From Ramlibacter cellulosilyticus (GTDB lineage: Bacteria > Pseudomonadota > Gammaproteobacteria > Burkholderiales > Burkholderiaceae_C), in assembly GCF_014297465.1 (NCBI RefSeq), contig NZ_JACORT010000007.1, positions 248,001-312,000 on the forward strand: a DNA stretch of 64,000 nucleotides, given 5' to 3'. Within the stretch, counting starts at the first letter, position 1. The number at the start of each line of letters is the position of its first letter. Positions 45,994 through 61,337 of this stretch are shown piece after piece. The notes under the pieces are model-generated. The model ran no database searches. It was not told the origin of the DNA and saw only the letters and a list, made by a program, of their open reading frames with translations. A program made the translations under genes and the position numbers.

Positions 45994-47067
45994 ATGGCCA
46001 TTGCCCAACCCGCCCCCCCGATCGAACCGATGCTGGCCAAGATCGCCGACGTCCTGCCGGCCGAGCCCGGCTTCCTCTTCGAGCCCAAGTGGGACGGCTT
46101 CCGCGCCCTGGTCTTCCGCGGCGCGGAACAGACCTACCTGCAGAGCCGCGACCTGCGGCCGCTGAACCGCTACTTCCCCGAGCTGGAGAAAGCCCTGCAC
46201 GACGCGCTGCCCAAGGGCTGCGTGCTGGACGGCGAGATCGTGGTCGCGACGCCGCGCGGGCTGGACTTCGACGCGCTGCAGATGCGCCTGCACCCCGCCG
46301 CCTCGCGCGTCGCGAGGCTGTCGAAGGAGACGCCCTCGAGCTTCGTGGCCTTCGACCTGCTGGCGGCCGGCGGCAAGTCGACGATGGAGCTGCCGCAGTC
46401 GGAGCGCCGCGCGCGCCTGGAGCGCCTGCTCGGAAAGGCCAGGCCGCCGCTGCACCTCACGCCGGTGACGCGCGACCGCGCCGAAGCGGAGCGCTGGCTG
46501 CAGGAGTTCGAAGGCGCGGGCCTCGATGGCGTGATCGCCAAGCTGGAGTCCGCGACCTACCAGCCCGGCAAGCGGGCGATGCTGAAGATCAAGCACGTGC
46601 GCAGCGCCGACTGCGTGGTGGCGGGCTTCCGCTGGTACAAGGACCGCGACGACGCGGTCGGCTCGCTGCTGCTCGGCCTGCACGACGACGCCGGCGTCCT
46701 GCAGCACGTGGGCGTCACGTCCTCGTTCACCATGGACATGCGCAAGCAGCTGGCGCAGGAGCTGGAGCCGCTGCGCAAGGATGCGCTGCAGGACCATCCC
46801 TGGCGCGAATGGGCGGGCGCGGTCACCGGCGACGCGCAGCGCATGCCGGGCGCGCAGAGCCGCTGGAGCGGCGGCAAGGACCTGAGCTGGGAGCCGCTGC
46901 GGCCGGAGCGCGTGTGCGAGGTCAAGTACGACCACCTGCAGGGCAACCGCTTCCGCCACGCGGCGGTGTTCCTGCGCTGGCGCCCGGACAAGCCGCCGGA
47001 GGATTGCCGCTACGACCAGCTGGAAGTGACGACGCCGTTCGAGCTGGCGAAGGTGTTCGGGGCTTGA
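45994..47067 (+). CDS. ATP-dependent DNA ligase (LigC-type)
   Basis: 357 residues. Nucleotidyltransferase domain with adenylated K32 in EPKWDGFRA, DGEIVV, FVAFDLLA, GVIAKLESATY and motif V MLKIKHVR, then an OB-fold domain (~225-355). The length is that of stand-alone ligases such as LigC, without polymerase or nuclease domains. A LigD-type polymerase domain is encoded separately at 49979-51199, so the two may act together in break repair. Confidence 0.92.
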   Translation: MAIAQPAPPIEPMLAKIADVLPAEPGFLFEPKWDGFRALVFRGAEQTYLQSRDLRPLNRYFPELEKALHDALPKGCVLDGEIVVATPRGLDFDALQMRLHPAASRVARLSKETPSSFVAFDLLAAGGKSTMELPQSERRARLERLLGKARPPLHLTPVTRDRAEAERWLQEFEGAGLDGVIAKLESATYQPGKRAMLKIKHVRSADCVVAGFRWYKDRDDAVGSLLLGLHDDAGVLQHVGVTSSFTMDMRKQLAQELEPLRKDALQDHPWREWAGAVTGDAQRMPGAQSRWSGGKDLSWEPLRPERVCEVKYDHLQGNRFRHAAVFLRWRPDKPPEDCRYDQLEVTTPFELAKVFGA

Positions 47068-48799: not shown

Positions 48800-49780
48800 T
48801 CACTCCAGCTTGATGCCGGCTTCCTTGACCACCTTGCCCCAGCGCGCGAGTTCGTCGACCAGGTAGGCGGACATCTCCTCGGGGCTGGACGGCGTCGGCT
48901 CCACGCCGGCGTCGAACAAGGCCTTCTGCGTGTCGGGTGCGGCCATCAGCCGCGCGACCTCCGTGTTCAACTTCGCCACGATTTCCGGCGGCGTGCCGGC
49001 CGGCGCCAGCAGCGCGAGCCACACGGAGGCCGCGTAGCCCGAGACGCCGGCCTCCTGCATCGTGGGCACGTCGGGCAGCTGCGGCGCGCGCCTGGCCGTC
49101 GTGACGGCCAGCGCCTTGAGCCGGCCTTGCGGCACCTGCGCGAGCGCGTTCGGCACGCCGGCGAAGCTGCTTTCCACGGTGCCGGCGACGAGGTCCTGCG
49201 CAGCGCCCGAACTGCCCTTGTAAGGCACGTGCTTGAGCGGTGCGCCCGTCATGGCGGCGAACAGGCCGCCCATGAGGTGCTGGGCGCTGCCGTTCCCCGA
49301 GGACGCATAGTGGATCGTCTCCGGCGCCGCCTTCGCGAGCGCGATGAACTCCTGCACGTTCTTCGCCTGCACCTTCGGGTGCACGAGGAGCACGTAGGGC
49401 GAATCGACCAGCTTGCCGACCACGGTGAAGCTCTTGACGGGGTCGTACGGCAGGCTCTTGTAGATCCAGGGGCTGATCACGTGCGTGCTGGACACCATCA
49501 GCAGCGTGTAGCCGTCGGGCGGCGACTTCGCGACCAGGTCGCTGCCGATGGTGGAGCCGGCGCCGGGCTTGTTCTCGATCACGAACTGCTGGCCCAGGGA
49601 CTGCGACAGCTTCTGCCCCAGGATGCGCGCCACCACGTCGGTGAAGCCACCGGGGGCGAAGGGCACGACCAGCTTCACGGGGCGCGTGGGGTACGCGTGC
49701 GGCTGGCCCTGCGCGGCCGCAGGAAGGGCCCCCGCGGCGAGCGCGAAGGCGAAGACCAGACCCGGGACAGAACTGCGCAT
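48800..49780 (-). CDS. Bug/TctC-type substrate-binding protein
   Basis: 326 residues. Sec signal peptide (FAFALAAGALPAAAQ), mature YPTRPVKLVVPFAPGGFTD, second ligand loop HVPYKGSSGAAQDLVAG. Periplasmic binding protein without TctAB partners in the window. GGAGG at 49787-49791 supports the ATG. It is convergent with the alpha/beta hydrolase, and Bug genes often sit beside the catabolic enzyme for their ligand, so the two may share a substrate. Confidence 0.92.
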   Translation of the reverse strand: MRSSVPGLVFAFALAAGALPAAAQGQPHAYPTRPVKLVVPFAPGGFTDVVARILGQKLSQSLGQQFVIENKPGAGSTIGSDLVAKSPPDGYTLLMVSSTHVISPWIYKSLPYDPVKSFTVVGKLVDSPYVLLVHPKVQAKNVQEFIALAKAAPETIHYASSGNGSAQHLMGGLFAAMTGAPLKHVPYKGSSGAAQDLVAGTVESSFAGVPNALAQVPQGRLKALAVTTARRAPQLPDVPTMQEAGVSGYAASVWLALLAPAGTPPEIVAKLNTEVARLMAAPDTQKALFDAGVEPTPSSPEEMSAYLVDELARWGKVVKEAGIKLE

Positions 49781-49884
49781 GCGAGCCTCCCTGTGCGAGG
49801 ACGGCCAGTGTTGCACCGGGTCCGGGCAGGTGCATCAGGGTGCGCCCGGATGGGGGATACACGGACGAGGGGTGGTTGTGCATC

Positions 49885-49978: not shown

Positions 49979-51199
49979 CTACGTCGGCTTGTCCGACTTC
50001 GGCCGCAGCCGCGCCGGCACGTGCTCCAGGTTGATCCGCACGCGGTACCAGAGCGAGGACCTGCCGCGCATGCGGTCCACCAGCACGTCGGCCGGCTCCA
50101 GGTGCGCAGCCGCCCTGGGATGCTTCGCCTTCCACTCTTCCGCCGCCGCCACCGCCTCGGCTTCGCGCTCGCTGCGCGCCACCTCGATCAGCGGCTTCTT
50201 CACGCGGGGCGCGGTCGAAGGCGGGGCGCGCCGCGGCTCGCCGGCCGCCTTGCGGTAGTGCGGCGGCCAGGGCGCATCGCCCTCGCCCTGCGCGTCGGCC
50301 AGCGCGAGCAGCGGCTCGAGCGAGCAGCGCCAGTGATCGATGTCCGCATGCGGGTCGCCGATGCGGCGAAAGCGCTCCGGCATCGTATGCAGCGTGAAGT
50401 CGGCCGGGTTGCACGCGGCCAGCTCCTTCCACGTCACCGGCGCCGAGACGCGCGCGTCCGGCTTCGGCCGCACCGAGTACGCGGACGTGACGGTGCGGTC
50501 CTTCGCGTTCTGGTTGTAGTCGACGAAGACGCCGCGGCGCTCTTCCTTCCACCACTTGCTGCTCGCGAGGGTGGGCGCCCGCCGCTCCACCTCGCGGGCC
50601 AGCGCCAGGGCCGCGCGCCGTACCTCGTCGAAAGTCCAGCGCGGCTCGATGCGCACCAGCACGTGGATGCCGCGGGAGCCGGAGGTCTTGGGCCAGCCCT
50701 TGAGCCCCAGCTCCGTCAGCACCTCGTGCACGACGTCGGCCACCTGCACGATCTGCGGCCACTCGACGCCGGGCACCGGGTCCAGGTCCACGCGAAGCTC
50801 ATCGGGATGGTCCAGGTCCTCGGCGCGCACGGGATGGGGATGCAGTTCCAGGCAGGCGAGGTTGGCCATCCACGCCAGGTCGGCCGGATGCCGCGGCACC
50901 ACCTCTTCGGCGCTGCGGCCGGAGGGGAAGCGGATCTCCGCCACCTCCAGCCAGTCCGGCCGCTTGGTGGGGGCCCGCTTCTGGAAGAAGAACTCGTCGT
51001 CGACGCCGTTCGGATACCGCACCAGGATGCAGGGCCGGCCCCCCGCGCCGCGCAAGGCGCCTTCGGCAACAGCCAGGTAATAGTTCACGAGGTCGATCTT
51101 CCGCACGTTGGCGGAGGCGATGAGCAGCTTGTCCGGGTGGGTGATCACCACCTCCCGGCCGCCAATCTCCAGCGTGACCTCGTCCTTGCTCGTACCCAT
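49979..51199 (-). CDS. LigD polymerase (PrimPol/PolDom) domain protein
   Basis: 406 residues. Archaeo-eukaryotic primase fold of the NHEJ polymerase LigD: N-terminal THPDKLL, active-site LRVDLDP with the two catalytic aspartates, the conserved SGSRGIHVLVR, and DYNQNAKDRTVTSAYSVR. The domain alone is ~300 residues; the C-terminal ~100 residues are lysine/arginine-rich and may bind DNA. No ligase or nuclease domain is fused and no Ku gene is in the window. The separate ligase at 45994 may be its partner. Confidence 0.9.
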   Translation of the reverse strand: MGTSKDEVTLEIGGREVVITHPDKLLIASANVRKIDLVNYYLAVAEGALRGAGGRPCILVRYPNGVDDEFFFQKRAPTKRPDWLEVAEIRFPSGRSAEEVVPRHPADLAWMANLACLELHPHPVRAEDLDHPDELRVDLDPVPGVEWPQIVQVADVVHEVLTELGLKGWPKTSGSRGIHVLVRIEPRWTFDEVRRAALALAREVERRAPTLASSKWWKEERRGVFVDYNQNAKDRTVTSAYSVRPKPDARVSAPVTWKELAACNPADFTLHTMPERFRRIGDPHADIDHWRCSLEPLLALADAQGEGDAPWPPHYRKAAGEPRRAPPSTAPRVKKPLIEVARSEREAEAVAAAEEWKAKHPRAAAHLEPADVLVDRMRGRSSLWYRVRINLEHVPARLRPKSDKPT

Positions 51200-51233
51200 G
51201 CCAAACCGTACACCGCTGGCACGCGCAGACGGG

Positions 51234-54200
51234 TCAGACACTGCCGCCAAGCGCATCTCCTGCTGGCCGATCCAGGAGCGACGCATTCCTTGCAGCCTTG
51301 AACAGGACCGATCGGTTCTCGATCTCCTGTTCCGCGAAGTCCCTGAGGAGCTGCAGGTCCGTGCGTCGCGCCATTGCACAGATAAAGGCAACGAGCTCAC
51401 GACGATCCCCGGGCCTCACGGCCGTACCTTCCCAAAGCTTCGGGGTATCCAGCAGCGCGAGGGTGCTTCGGATGTCCTCCGCGACGTAGACGACCCGCCG
51501 GGCAGCCACGTACGCGCGCATGAGGTCGTGACGGAACTCGAACGCGGCCGCGCGCCGCACGACGATGCGAGCCGCAGCCATGGGCTCCAACAATCCTGCG
51601 GGCAGTGCTGCGGACTCCGTAAACCGGCGGTCCCCGCTCAGGAACATGTCCCAAGCCACGTTCGCGAGCGCGCCGTCGACCACCTCAGGCACTGCGGCGC
51701 CCTGCAACCCCTCTTCGTATGCAGCGTCATAGAGCTGCAGGCGGGTCCGTGGAAGCCGCTTTCCCGACTGCACACATTGCGCGATGAGCTGGACGTCGTA
51801 CCCGGAGCGAACACTCGCCACGAGTTGCTCGTTGAGCTGCGCGATCGTACGTTCGCCCGCCTCCTGTCCCAGCATGTTGACGAGCAAGGAAGAAATGAGT
51901 GCACGGTCGAAAACGGGGAGCATGAGACATCGGATGTCCCAAGCTCTTGGCAGGGACTGCGAAGTCGCCAGAAGCCTGACGGAGGATCCCACGACGTTGC
52001 AGTACCGCTGGAGTGCGGCATCGCGATCCACTTCGTTCATTCCATCGATGACGAGACACACATCGCCGGTGCGGAGAAGGCGATAGAAGAACGCCGCGTC
52101 CTGCACCTGCAACCCGACCGAGGAGAACTGATGGCGCGCCATCTCCGCCGCCCACGGCGCATCGGGCGTGTCCGGTGTGTCCGGGAAATCGCGTGCGCGG
52201 ACCACGATGGGCATGAATCCGTACTCGCGTATGGCCTGCTCCCATGATCCGGTCGAGTAGAACGCTCGCTCGAACGCGGAGACCAGTTCGGACTTTCCTG
52301 TTCCGGCCTCGCCCTGGATCCAGAGAGGTCTCCCCTCGACCAGTTCCTTGTGAATCTCGTTCGACCAGCTGACTGGATTTCGGCGCTCCAGCAACTGCAC
52401 TGGAACGTAGGCGCCTTGTGCGTCTGCGTTGCCACGCGCCATGATCAGAGCTCGCCTCCGATCGAAATAGGCGGCCAGCAGCCATAGCCTGAGCGGGCGA
52501 ACATGGAAGATGACTGGCCTGTACCAGACTTTCAGCGCCTCCCAGTTCGGAGCGGTGAGGAACTCGAAGCACCAGCGGTTTCTTCTCGCGCCCCAGAGGA
52601 GAGCGGCGCTAGCCAAGGCACCGAGGAACGCGGTCGATAGCGCACCAGCGGCCACGAGATCCTGCGCTGCTTGCTGCCAAGTTCTCTCGAGCGTGAACAC
52701 GGGTGTCCGGAAACCTCTGCCGAACCTCGGCTCGGCCGGGTCCTGGAGCGAGACTTCCACCAGGTAGTCACCGCTCTCTCCCAGCTTCTCCCCGTTCACG
52801 ATGGCGGATGCCTGACCCGGATTAGCCCCCTCGGGCCGCAGGATCGACGCTGCGCCCACCTCGACACCGTCGCGATACAGCTTCGCTACCGTCCGGAATG
52901 CACCCTCGACGCCGAGGCACGGGTGCCGGTCTGCGATCGTGCGCCACGCGACCTGTAGGTCGGAGCCCCTCGTGTGCCGCACCCGAGGAGGCATGGTGAA
53001 GGTCAGGTCGCCATCGTTCAACGGCGCGTCGATGTACTTGAACAATCCGGCGTCGTACAGGACGTGGGCCGAATCCAAGGGACTCTTGAGTGGGAAGATT
53101 CCGCTGACACGGGTGCCTCGCACTCCGGCCACCGGCGCAAGCTGCCCGTTCTCTAGCGTCCGGTACAGATTCCCCTCTTTCGTTCCGATCAGGATCCGCT
53201 TGCCGATTCTGCTCGCCGCGCTGAGCGATCCCTCAAGGTTTCCGATGATGCGGTACGTTCCGGCTCCATCAAGCAGGCCCACGCCCACCTTGGACTCCAG
53301 CAGAATGTCGCGTCCCAACACATGGGCATTCATCACATCGCCGGCTTCGGCAGGCAATCGTGTGGCACTTCCCTCGTGGATGACATACGTGCCGGATTCC
53401 CCATGCGCCAGAACGCCGCCCGGGATGGCAGACACGCTCTTTAAGGCTCCCTCGACGCCCTCGACCTTTATCACCTTGCCCGCCTGCGAAATGGAATAGA
53501 GCAAGTTGCCGGCGTTGACATAGGCGTCCGACCCGGCCCTGTGCAGTCGGGCATTCGCCGGAAGTTCCACGGAAAGTACTTGCTCCATCGTCGTACCGGG
53601 CACCCGCCGGAACACACCCTGTTGCGAGGCCAGAAGGAGCGCTCCGGGAAAGGTTTCGACAGCGTGGATCTTCCCGAGGGCCGGCCCACCGACGGCACCC
53701 AGCTGAAACATGCCAGTACGGACGGCCAGCCCGGAGGCGCCCCGAATCAGAAGTTCATCTCCATTCTTGATGAACGCTTCGAACCCGCCGATGTCGCCGA
53801 GCGGAAAAGGCTTGATTTCGCCAGCGGGTGACACGGCAAATACGCCGTTCTCCGAGCTCAAGAGCACCCCGAAGCGGTCGACCGCCGCATCCAGAACCCG
53901 CCCGACGACGGGCAAGGTACTGGCCAACCGCAACCCGTTGGGGAGGATGATGTAGGAGCCCAGATCGTCAGTTTGGCGGATCAGGTCTCCCGAACTGCTC
54001 ATGGAACCCGATCGCCCGATCGAGCCAGGCAGTTTGCTCACCTTGCCAGACTCTGCCACCCAGTAGCTGGCGGTACCGGGGAGATCGCGTATCAGCATCC
54101 CGGCAGAAGTTGCAAATGAACCGAATGCGCTAACGCGGGCCACATCGGGCGGAAGCGTGACCCGGTTCAGACCTGCATCCGGACTGATGCGATACAGCTG

Positions 54201-54632
54201 ACCGTCCACCACAACCCACACTCCGCGGGTCGATCGGCCGCCCTGGACAATCTCTGGAGTCGACAGGCTGGAGACGAGCAAGGACGACCGGCCCTCTTCA
54301 TCCAGGCGGTACAGCCCGTTGCTCGCTGTGAAGACGAGTTGCTTGCCCAGCCAGAAGGAATCCTTCACCTTGTCGAAGTTACCCTCCCGCTTTGCGATGT
54401 CGCCCGTCTCAGACACGCTGAAGAGGCCGTTCTGCTCCAGCAGAATGGTGGGAGGGCCCTGACCGGCAGGAAAACGGGCGACCAGCCGGCTCGAGGCAGC
54501 CGTCGGGACGACGCATGCAATGGCGGCAGCGTCGCCGGGGACGATGAGCGCGGTGATGGCGAGAAGCACGAACGTCCGACGATATGTCTGCTCGGGCGTC
54601 GTCAGGGGCGGCACGCAGCGAGACGCCTTCAT
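51234..54632 (-). CDS. Transmembrane NACHT NTPase with periplasmic double beta-propeller sensor
   Basis: 1132 residues. Signal/anchor helix (~19-38); residues ~60-540 hold about 13 blade-like repeats of ~38 residues (QNGLFSVSETG, SNGLYRLDEEG, ENGVFAVSPAG, QQGVFRRVPG, EGNLYRTLENG); an Ig-like segment (~545-650; GDYLVEVSLQD) resembles Y_Y_Y domains; a membrane helix (~658-681); then a cytoplasmic NACHT domain with Walker A GEAGTGKS (774-781), Walker B VCLVIDGMNEVDRD (858-871), ATSQS (889-893) and FEFRHDLMRAYVAARR (1031-1046). The start has GAGGAG six bases upstream. Composition is markedly less GC-rich than its neighbours. The periplasmic half is like hybrid two-component sensors, but the kinase is replaced by a STAND NTPase. 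Function unknown; surveillance or defence is possible. Confidence 0.87.
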   Translation of the reverse strand: MKASRCVPPLTTPEQTYRRTFVLLAITALIVPGDAAAIACVVPTAASSRLVARFPAGQGPPTILLEQNGLFSVSETGDIAKREGNFDKVKDSFWLGKQLVFTASNGLYRLDEEGRSSLLVSSLSTPEIVQGGRSTRGVWVVVDGQLYRISPDAGLNRVTLPPDVARVSAFGSFATSAGMLIRDLPGTASYWVAESGKVSKLPGSIGRSGSMSSSGDLIRQTDDLGSYIILPNGLRLASTLPVVGRVLDAAVDRFGVLLSSENGVFAVSPAGEIKPFPLGDIGGFEAFIKNGDELLIRGASGLAVRTGMFQLGAVGGPALGKIHAVETFPGALLLASQQGVFRRVPGTTMEQVLSVELPANARLHRAGSDAYVNAGNLLYSISQAGKVIKVEGVEGALKSVSAIPGGVLAHGESGTYVIHEGSATRLPAEAGDVMNAHVLGRDILLESKVGVGLLDGAGTYRIIGNLEGSLSAASRIGKRILIGTKEGNLYRTLENGQLAPVAGVRGTRVSGIFPLKSPLDSAHVLYDAGLFKYIDAPLNDGDLTFTMPPRVRHTRGSDLQVAWRTIADRHPCLGVEGAFRTVAKLYRDGVEVGAASILRPEGANPGQASAIVNGEKLGESGDYLVEVSLQDPAEPRFGRGFRTPVFTLERTWQQAAQDLVAAGALSTAFLGALASAALLWGARRNRWCFEFLTAPNWEALKVWYRPVIFHVRPLRLWLLAAYFDRRRALIMARGNADAQGAYVPVQLLERRNPVSWSNEIHKELVEGRPLWIQGEAGTGKSELVSAFERAFYSTGSWEQAIREYGFMPIVVRARDFPDTPDTPDAPWAAEMARHQFSSVGLQVQDAAFFYRLLRTGDVCLVIDGMNEVDRDAALQRYCNVVGSSVRLLATSQSLPRAWDIRCLMLPVFDRALISSLLVNMLGQEAGERTIAQLNEQLVASVRSGYDVQLIAQCVQSGKRLPRTRLQLYDAAYEEGLQGAAVPEVVDGALANVAWDMFLSGDRRFTESAALPAGLLEPMAAARIVVRRAAAFEFRHDLMRAYVAARRVVYVAEDIRSTLALLDTPKLWEGTAVRPGDRRELVAFICAMARRTDLQLLRDFAEQEIENRSVLFKAARNASLLDRPAGDALGGSV

Positions 54633-54774
54633 GTCTAGCTCCTCTTTGCGCGCCCAGCATGTCACAAGTGGCTTGCGCCGATCTCCACCTCTTGGGGGAG
54701 GCAAGACAGGCACAATAGAGGGATCTGTGCGGCCGTGCGTCCAAGCCCGGCCGTTTGCAATTCCGGAGCCCCCC

Positions 54775-60272: not shown

Positions 60273-61235
60273 TCAGTTCGGCTTGGCCAGCCCGAGCTTC
60301 TCGATCAGCGCCTTTTCGCGCGCGAAGGTTTCCTGCGCGAAGCGCGTGTACTGCGCGGAGTCCATGTAGATCGGCACCATGTCGTAGCCGGCCAGCGCGC
60401 GCTGGTAGCTCGGCTCCTCCATCGCCTGCTTGAAGGCGTCGTGCAGCTTCTTCACGACCTCGGGCGGCGTGCCACGCGGCGCGCCGATGCCGAAAGGCGA
60501 GTTCTGCACGACGTCGAGGCCCAGCTCCTTGAGCGTGGGCACGTCCGGGAACTTCTCCAGGCGCTTCTCGCCCCAGGTGTTCAGCACGCGCACCTTGCCG
60601 GCCTGCACCAGCGGCGCGAAGCCCGTGGAGTCGGCCATGGCCATGATGTGGCCGCCGCCGATGGCCGTCGCCAGGTCCGCGCTGCCCTTGTACGGGATGT
60701 GGTTCAGCTGGATGCCGAGCTTCTGGGCGATCAGCTCGGTGGTGAGGTGCGGGCTGGTCAGCGTGCCGGTGGAGCCGTAGCTCAGCTTGCCGGGGTTCGC
60801 CTTCGCGTACGCGACGAAGTCGTTCCAGTTCTTGAACGGGCTGTCCGCGGGCACCGCGATGCCGAAGGCATAGCCGGTGACGTTGATGACGTAGCTGATG
60901 TCCTTGACCGGATCCCAGTTGATCTTGGTCGTGTACGGCAGCCGGAACACGCCCAGCGGGATCTGCGCGAGCGTGTAGCCGTCAGGGGCAGAAGTCTGCA
61001 GCAGTTGCGCGGGCAGCGAGCCGGCGGCGCCCGGCTTGTTCTCGACCACCACCGGCTGGCCCAGGATCTTGCCGGCGTTGTCGGCGAGCTGCCGCATGGT
61101 GATGTCGGTGGGCCCGCCCGCCGGGAAGGCGATCACGAGCTTGATCGGCTTGGCGGGAAAGGACTGGGCTTGGACACCCAGGCTCGCGACCGCGAGGGTG
61201 GCGGCGGCGAGCTGGACGAGGTGGCGACGGCGCAT
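60273..61235 (-). CDS. Bug/TctC-type substrate-binding protein
   Basis: 320 residues. Signal peptide (RRRHLVQLAAATLAVASLGVQA) then FPAKPIKLVIAFPAGGPTD; ligand loop [22 protein letters not shown] lies 5 bases before the ATG. It lies between the acetylpolyamine amidohydrolase-like and PuuD-like genes (gaps of 102 and 87 bases), suggesting that it binds a polyamine-derived or gamma-glutamyl acid. No transporter membrane genes are nearby. Confidence 0.92.
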   Translation of the reverse strand: MRRRHLVQLAAATLAVASLGVQAQSFPAKPIKLVIAFPAGGPTDITMRQLADNAGKILGQPVVVENKPGAAGSLPAQLLQTSAPDGYTLAQIPLGVFRLPYTTKINWDPVKDISYVINVTGYAFGIAVPADSPFKNWNDFVAYAKANPGKLSYGSTGTLTSPHLTTELIAQKLGIQLNHIPYKGSADLATAIGGGHIMAMADSTGFAPLVQAGKVRVLNTWGEKRLEKFPDVPTLKELGLDVVQNSPFGIGAPRGTPPEVVKKLHDAFKQAMEEPSYQRALAGYDMVPIYMDSAQYTRFAQETFAREKALIEKLGLAKPN

Positions 61236-61337
61236 CGGGACTCCTGGAGGGTTAGCGTCGAAAAACCCGTCCATTCCACCGCAGGCGCGTGCCGGCGCGC
61301 ATCGGGAGTGTCCCGCGCCGCCGGTCGCCATGGTGAC

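Follow-up and report, generated by a model that had tools for sequence, protein, structure and literature searches.

The window analysed here is a stretch of 64,000 nucleotides from Ramlibacter cellulosilyticus (contig NZ_JACORT010000007.1, positions 248,001 to 312,000), and the subject of this report is a single gene located in it between ligD-pol and prfC. It occupies positions 54632 down to 51234 of the minus strand and encodes a protein of 1132 amino acids (aa) in a frame free of internal stop codons, the ATG of which is preceded by a ribosome-binding site, AAAGAGGAG. A sequence-only reading, which preceded this analysis and gave no strand, had placed the gene correctly and had taken its product for a NACHT NTPase joined across the membrane to a propeller sensor of the hybrid two-component type. 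As predicted from the translation, a signal-like N-terminus is followed by a repeat ectodomain, an Ig-like segment, one membrane helix and a NACHT-like STAND NTPase (Table 1).

Table 1. Coordinates in the window of the insert, the gene and the predicted segments of its product.
Feature	Coordinates	Strand	Evidence
Approximate insert between ligD-pol and prfC	51217..54708		Empty-site relatives; contrast in GC content at third codon positions (GC3)
Whole gene: signal-like N-terminus, repeat ectodomain, membrane helix and NACHT-like STAND NTPase	51234..54632	-	Open reading frame and translation; codon usage and GC3 unlike neighbours
N-terminal segment, residues 1-42, with signal peptide-like hydrophobic stretch 24-42 and the end ACVV containing the conserved Cys40	54507..54632	-	Hydropathy
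Ectodomain of 13 propeller-type repeats, each of ~38 residues except for a shorter last one, residues 62-540	53013..54449	-	Hidden Markov model (HMM) from relatives' units; Variovorax model
Ig-like segment, residues 541-655, containing the invariant HPC (Cys572) and perhaps forming a Y_Y_Y-like domain, fold unconfirmed	52668..53012	-	HPC alignment
Membrane helix, taken as residues 659-681	52590..52658	-	Hydropathy peak 659-678; matching peak in 8/8 relatives
Juxtamembrane segment, residues 682-759	52356..52589	-	Alignment with relatives; hhalign with second clade
P-loop NTPase core, residues 760-898: Walker A at 774, VIDGMNE as Walker B and, at 890-892, TSQ in the sensor-1 position	51939..52355	-	Motifs; hhalign
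C-terminal helical, presumably winged-helix-like part, residues 899-1132, with FRHDLMRAYVAA at 1033-1044	51237..51938	-	Motif; alignment

Origin of the gene at the ligD-pol/prfC junction

The composition of the gene differs from that of its surroundings. Its overall GC content is 63.3%. Six neighbours have GC3 values of 0.909-0.955, whereas that of the gene is 0.748, and among nine genes compared it stands furthest apart in codon usage. The GC counts of two sample rows from which horizontal gain had been suggested, 36/60 and 43/60, proved exact. When presence or absence was checked in related genomes, a protein search of the genus found the gene in one of 60 genomes, namely, its own, so that it is not universally conserved core DNA of the genus. 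The flanking prfC and ligD-pol genes were found in 55 and 30 of 59 genus genomes, respectively, the own genome counted. One of the 29 other genomes with ligD-pol lacks a prfC match, and the remaining 28 carry both genes divergently on one contig, the spacer between the matched parts being shorter than 300 bp in 23 of these 28 relatives, as against 3575 bp in the window; together with the GC3 contrast, this bears out the proposed gain. At the base level, both flanks match the window in 11 relatives with 34-201 bp between the matches, indicative of empty sites (a locus with a 731-bp spacer, L017, was excluded from these 11). Flank homology ends at ~51187-51222 on the left and at 54709 on the right, and the empty-site matches thus delimit an insert of 3.5 kb consisting of the gene and less than 100 bp on each side. 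The pentamer GGCAC occurs at both ends of the insert, possibly by chance, and neither a sigma-70 nor a terminator match was found on the promoter side of the gene. Taken together, the sequence comparisons support the horizontal acquisition of a foreign single-gene insert between ligD-pol and prfC.

The five other relatives have larger spacers at this junction. One (G011, locus L015) carries a complete-looking type I restriction-modification operon, whereas a 12-kb spacer (G007, locus L016) contains genes for a 1993-aa RTX-repeat protein and an IS1595-type transposase, with no PADLOC match at E<=1e-5. The remaining ones hold DUF1501/DUF1800 genes, or an oxidoreductase gene with a sigma factor gene, or, in one case, just 731 bp.

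Layout of the protein and its propeller-bearing relatives

The back-translated pattern FRHD.MRA[FY].AA gave three stretches in 84,980 species genomes, two of which belong to true relatives of the same layout, from Variovorax sp. J22R133 (1148 aa) and Pseudomonas vancouverensis (1190 aa); the third, in Buttiauxella (L046), was dropped, no open reading frame of at least 250 aa being listed over the motif. Between the end of the helix and the vicinity of the C-terminus, the window protein is 28% identical to the Variovorax protein (E=3e-41) and 29% identical to the Pseudomonas protein (E=2e-35). The propeller-helix-NACHT order proposed from the letters is thus found in further proteins, the gene neighbourhoods of which were inspected as well.

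Hydropathy peaks at residues 24-42 and 659-678 agree with the signal anchor and the single membrane helix that had been read from the sequence. Residues 62-540 were divided by eye into 13 units, of which twelve measure 36-42 aa and the final one 19 aa, in line with the roughly 13 repeats of ~38 residues noticed earlier. Raw self-autocorrelation of the repeats is weak (lag 73, z=2.5; lag 38, z=2.0), and a blade HMM that drew on nothing but the near-identical Variovorax repeats gave the window protein no significant score, the real score being reached by 32 of 500 shuffles (288 of the 500 scored). An HMM built from the Pseudomonas and Variovorax units, with the window sequence excluded, gave the window ectodomain 18.9 bits, which was reached by none of 1000 shuffles (474 scored).

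Structure prediction was most informative for the Variovorax relative. In its model, the repeats (residues 66-510) form regular four-stranded blades, with blocks of the predicted local distance difference test (pLDDT) mostly at 50-81 and a dip at 211-240; the NTPase part consists of alternating strands and helices (pLDDT ~28-64). A Foldseek search of this model against the PDB gave, at ranks 1-15, domains of Bacteroides sensors of the hybrid two-component (or 'one component') type that are periplasmic or extracellular, with E-values of 2.4e-19 to 2.3e-16 and template modelling (TM) scores of 0.15-0.27, many other propellers ranking below, including PorZ of the type IX secretion system at rank 18. 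In the model, the blades clearly resemble those of periplasmic two-component propellers locally, whereas neither their number nor the overall arrangement is clear. The claim of a propeller outside the membrane is supported as regards propeller-type repeats and a relative's model resembling hybrid two-component domains, but not as regards a fixed number of blades, since counting by eye gave 12, 13 and 13-14 units in the three propeller members. The proposal that the Ig-like segment is a Y_Y_Y domain was not confirmed: Pfam, even at E<=10, gave neither a Y_Y_Y nor a propeller match to the window protein, and the corresponding segment of the Variovorax model, although strands are present, has low pLDDT.

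The three propeller members have conserved cysteines in common. Residues A39, C40 and P43 of the N-terminal segment (ACVVP) and the HPC of the Ig-like segment are invariant in all three, and between the signal-like segment and the helix each protein has exactly two cysteines, one near the N-terminus and one in HPC. In the window protein, Cys40 and Cys572 are the sole cysteines outside the membrane beyond the signal-like segment. This conservation suggests an extracytoplasmic disulphide.

On the other side of the helix, Walker A (GEAGTGKS at 774), Walker B (CLVIDGMNE at 859, with VIDGMNE at 861-867, in agreement with the pattern hhhhDG.[DN]E) and the C-terminal motif (FRHDLM at 1033) stand in the translation intact and where they had been read. 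Walker A, Walker B and F.HD were found in nine of nine family members, that is, including the second clade described below, and EFRHD.MRA..AA is invariant in the three propeller members. Pfam gave only three P-loop matches to the window protein, all of them sub-threshold (AAA_16, E=0.0033; NACHT, E=0.0034; NPHP3_N, E=0.0037), and NCBIfam gave none. An hhalign comparison of four members with an ordinary NACHT protein (L065), the single protein used for this comparison, yielded a probability of 90.2 and E=1.5e-6 over 177 columns, with TSQ of the family opposite TSR. Judged by these alignments, the NTPase is NACHT-like, not a textbook NACHT. In the window protein, Pfam found neither a histidine kinase, receiver or DNA-binding/HTH domain nor a fused nuclease, TIR or protease, nor a further recognised sensor domain on the cytoplasmic side. 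The stretch from Walker A to Walker B is free of hydropathy peaks above 1.5, the helix being located ahead of Walker A.

Exchange of the predicted extracytoplasmic part and distribution of the family

A core profile searched against 101 genomes around J22R133 matched two of them, J22R133 itself, which has two copies, and, weakly, G1460. In the second J22R133 copy, HEAT repeats (Pfam HEAT_2, E=4.6e-13) replace the propeller, while the core matches that of the window protein with E=3.6e-19. The G1460 protein (1464 aa) has yet another ectodomain, which by eye is probably helical, and its core retrieved four plasmid records at 33.8-51.7% identity, all annotated as 'hypothetical' or 'unknown': two from Rhizobium leguminosarum, one from Mesorhizobium onobrychidis and one from Calothrix sp. 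PCC 7716. The Calothrix protein has a HEAT ectodomain, and the HEAT stretch of the second J22R133 copy is 29% identical to it over 114 aa (E=6e-6), which may reflect general HEAT similarity.

The window clade (four sequences) and this second clade (five sequences), compared by hhalign as disjoint sets, align over 340 columns that extend from the juxtamembrane segment to the FRHD motif (probability 98.3, E=1.2e-14); an alignment of A4 with A5 (E=1.5e-61) was discarded since L062 is common to both. A membrane-helix peak ahead of Walker A was flagged in all nine members. Judged from sequence conservation, the membrane-NTPase core has its own history, and it is the outside part, propeller or HEAT/alpha-solenoid, that is exchanged. 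The notion that the kinase output of a two-component sensor had been swapped for a STAND NTPase is accordingly not retained: an exchanged outside on a conserved core is better described as a transmembrane STAND core with exchangeable ectodomains than as a protein of two-component origin. The pace of exchange may be considerable. The propeller DNA of the Variovorax copy (L044, 6301-7509) consists of tandem repeats with a period of ~120 bp and 78-83% matches, nothing comparable being present in the window or Pseudomonas members. Such near-identical blades suggest recent duplication and, together with the presence of HEAT and propeller versions in one genome, fast sensor change.

The neighbourhoods of the relatives contain several genes of potential relevance. 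A gene for a TIR-domain membrane protein (TIR_2, E=5.3e-19) lies near the Variovorax propeller copy; downstream of that copy (L044, 1411-3897), it is found ~30 bp from a gene for a 349-aa membrane protein, the two possibly constituting an effector pair. In the second clade, a protein of 166-168 aa that looks exported is conserved after the STAND gene (L062, L066, L067 and L069), with a 4-bp gene overlap in three rhizobial records and, by eye, a counterpart after the G1460 gene; the one tested (L066) had no Pfam match. A caspase gene is located near a relative, and insertion sequence (IS) elements, some annotated and some recognised by eye, occur near relatives. Upstream of the Mesorhizobium member (L067, 14-2128), there is a gene for a protein with trypsin-like and endonuclease/exonuclease/phosphatase domains. 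Next to the HEAT-type Variovorax copy (L059, 3504-11043) are genes that were assigned by eye to an IS transposase, an LCAT-like hydrolase and another apparent STAND NTPase.

The distribution of the family is sparse. Whole-protein searches for close relatives gave nothing real in the plasmid, phage, viral-contig and species-genome contig collections; plasmid searches with P0008, P0007 and the HEAT-type core, viral-contig searches with P0008 and alignment A4, and a phage search with P0008 had no match. The FRHD motif scan gave no stretch in viral contigs and was positive for one of 249 phylum genomes, the own one. Among 399 family genomes, with at most two candidates per genome scored among the matches listed, the own gene was accompanied by two weak matches lying antisense to ordinary genes; among 399 order genomes, a C-terminal query gave the own gene and six weak places in five genomes, of which the two inspected are unrelated genes. 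Around P. vancouverensis, the core profile matched that species alone among 298 genomes, with at most five candidates per genome scored among the matches listed. A five-member profile retrieved from 220 family genomes the own gene and a protein of G191 (E=9.8e-6), which by eye is an ordinary cytoplasmic NACHT protein and served as an outside comparison rather than as a member. Profile A5 had no match in 59 genus genomes, a set devoid of a positive genome in which an empty answer shows nothing. The own genome contains ten weak NACHT places, the window gene included; two of the others, inspected by eye, look like a helicase and a LuxR/MalT-like ATPase. None of the protein-family libraries scanned with the window protein and its relatives names this family. 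The order signal-propeller-helix-NACHT is not described in the available portions of PMC7159879, PMC8195603, PMC10907252 and PMC12169576, which, coming from the open-licence literature only, is weak evidence of absence.

Comparison with known systems and possible functions

The sensors of hybrid two-component systems (HTCS) comprise a signal, two seven-bladed propellers, an Ig-like segment and one membrane helix. The window protein resembles this periplasmic half, as known from Bacteroides (BT4663, 4a2l/4a2m; BT4673, 3ott/3va6; BT3049, 3v9f), in its N-terminal signal, propeller-type units, possible Ig-like segment and one helix. It differs in the 12-14 units counted, as against two seven-bladed propellers, and in carrying a NACHT-like NTPase instead of histidine kinase, receiver and AraC domains; moreover, judging by the TM-scores of the relative's model, the likeness is local only. 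KAP NTPases, such as PifA and Kidins220, are membrane-bound STAND-related P-loop NTPases involved in phage exclusion; their membrane helices interrupt the P-loop domain between its two Walker motifs, whereas the only helix of the window protein precedes Walker A.

Bacterial NLR-like proteins are described, in the available part of PMC12169576, as having an N-terminal effector, a central NACHT and a C-terminal sensor. With bNACHT proteins (e.g. bNACHT25) and Avs, the window protein shares a STAND P-loop NTPase with Walker A and B, a C-terminal F.HD motif, a repeat domain as the presumed sensor and a patchy distribution. Unlike in these proteins, the order is ectodomain-helix-NTPase, the repeats are N-terminal and predicted to lie outside, so that the membrane would separate sensor from switch, no effector domain is recognised and the sensor-1 arginine is replaced by glutamine. 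In Thiohalocapsa PB-PSB1, STAND/NACHT proteins are targets of diversity-generating retroelements, with NACHT fused to a putative antigen sensor, and for one target a periplasmic location of both the NACHT and the CLec domain is predicted (PMC10907252, in part). The fusion of NACHT and sensor is common to these targets and the window protein, but the two parts are there predicted, as far as that source goes, on the same side, whereas here a helix separates them. By domain order, the window protein is a STAND/NLR-like variant and neither an HTCS nor a bNACHT/Avs protein as defined.

We give about an even chance to the reading that this single gene encodes a one-pass inner-membrane receptor, in which an extracytoplasmic ligand sensor is coupled to a NACHT-like STAND switch, most likely for conflict with phages or competitors. 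The intact frame, the relatives of the same layout, the exchangeable outside on a conserved core and the foreign insert are the parts of this reading that come directly from the sequences. On the strength of family knowledge, the N-terminus would be exported and the repeats would fold into one or two beta-propellers, perhaps with their ends joined by a Cys40-Cys572 disulphide, while the NTPase would reside in the cytoplasm, closed around ADP. A periplasmic or surface ligand, such as a phage tail or lysis protein, or damaged wall or glycan, would shift the propeller stalk, and this movement, transmitted by the helix, would open the NTPase, so that ATP binding could lead to oligomerisation of the receptor. 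As no fusion to a nuclease, TIR or protease is apparent from Pfam, the output might come either from the clustered membrane and juxtamembrane helices, which could permeabilise or depolarise the membrane, or from a recruited partner. The partner idea stems from the TIR-membrane gene of Variovorax and the small exported-looking protein of the second clade; neither type of partner entered with the window copy. The mobility of the gene, its patchiness, the exchange of sensors and the neighbours of relatives (TIR, caspase, trypsin-nuclease and IS) speak for a role in conflict, and defence against phages or competitors appears to be the likeliest role of the window protein.

Several points weigh against this reading. 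The Pfam NACHT score is 17.7 bits, below the gathering cut-off of 26.7, and glutamine replaces, in nine of nine members (TSQ in five, ASQ in three and TTQ in one), the arginine of TSR after strand 4 that we take to be the sensor-1 residue; given these two observations, the ATP cycle is putative, and the earlier claim of a STAND/NACHT NTPase is limited to a NACHT-like one. Export and topology are predicted from hydropathy only, and an N-terminal hydrophobic segment was flagged in only seven of nine members, that of the HEAT-type Variovorax copy being seen by eye only and R. leguminosarum A1 having none at its annotated start. The single-sequence model of the window protein is poor (pLDDT 34.6), and even the Variovorax model, built with three sequences, has an overall pLDDT of only 49.8. 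A TIR neighbour was not seen at the window nor, by eye, at the Pseudomonas locus. PADLOC gave for the window protein only a weak mad8 match (E=0.016) in the Walker region and for six relatives either no match or HEAT-type matches only, along with TIR-type matches for the Variovorax neighbour. A recognised defence system is present in one of the five larger spacers, which weakens the idea of a defence hotspot between ligD and prfC.

Among the alternatives, a nutrient or polysaccharide sensor, in which the propeller would read a glycan and the NTPase switch would control some regulator or transporter, is unlikely but fares best. MalT-type STANDs control transcription, and the nearest solved folds of the Variovorax model are Bacteroides hybrid two-component domains, including the heparin sensor BT4663. 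However, DNA-binding, kinase and receiver domains were not found by Pfam, no operon for catabolism or transport arrived with the insert (two TctC receptor genes do lie in the neighbourhood), HEAT/alpha-solenoid ectodomains on the same core suit the recognition of proteins better than that of one sugar, and the occurrence is very patchy. The reverse direction of signalling, whereby the cytoplasmic NTPase would sense inside and drive a periplasmic propeller/HEAT scaffold acting on wall, secretion or adhesion, could draw on the Foldseek match to PorZ and on the conserved exported-looking partner of the second clade, with its overlapping genes in the rhizobial records. We consider it improbable, as STAND switches usually signal from a repeat sensor to the NTPase, Pfam recognises no other cytoplasmic sensor domain and the window copy arrived without a partner gene. 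An orphan that was picked up by chance and is decaying or without function would fit the occurrence in one of 60 genomes of the genus search and the low, not ameliorated GC3, but is the least credible explanation, given the intact 1132-codon frame with its ribosome-binding site and the motifs kept in comparison with ~25-30% identical relatives from other genera.

Beyond the individual protein, we tentatively suggest, as a possibility carrying rather less confidence than the receptor reading itself, that bacteria possess a class of transmembrane NLR-like receptors, in which a helix-juxtamembrane-STAND core would be combined with swapped extracytoplasmic sensors (beta-propeller, HEAT or other alpha-solenoid). 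Such receptors would monitor the envelope and not the cytoplasm, and would spread as lone genes or together with that of a small exported partner; their effect would come from clustering of the core, by which either the membrane is opened or a TIR-type partner is recruited. If so, bacteria would couple recognition outside the cell directly to a STAND switch, rather as if a cell-surface receptor and an NLR were combined in a single chain, and it could be tested whether phage adsorption, lysis proteins or wall damage are sensed before, or without, detection in the cytoplasm. In the bacterial NLR-like proteins described in the portions of the literature available, the sensor is C-terminal to the NTPase and, as a rule, in the same compartment, from which exchangeable sensors across the membrane would differ.

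Two further features of the surrounding DNA may be mentioned. TctC-type solute receptor genes are located near the insert at 48800-49816 and 60273-61331, and the ligase functions of non-homologous end joining are split, with the ATP-ligase and the primase-polymerase encoded by separate genes on opposite strands (45994-47067 and 49979-51199).

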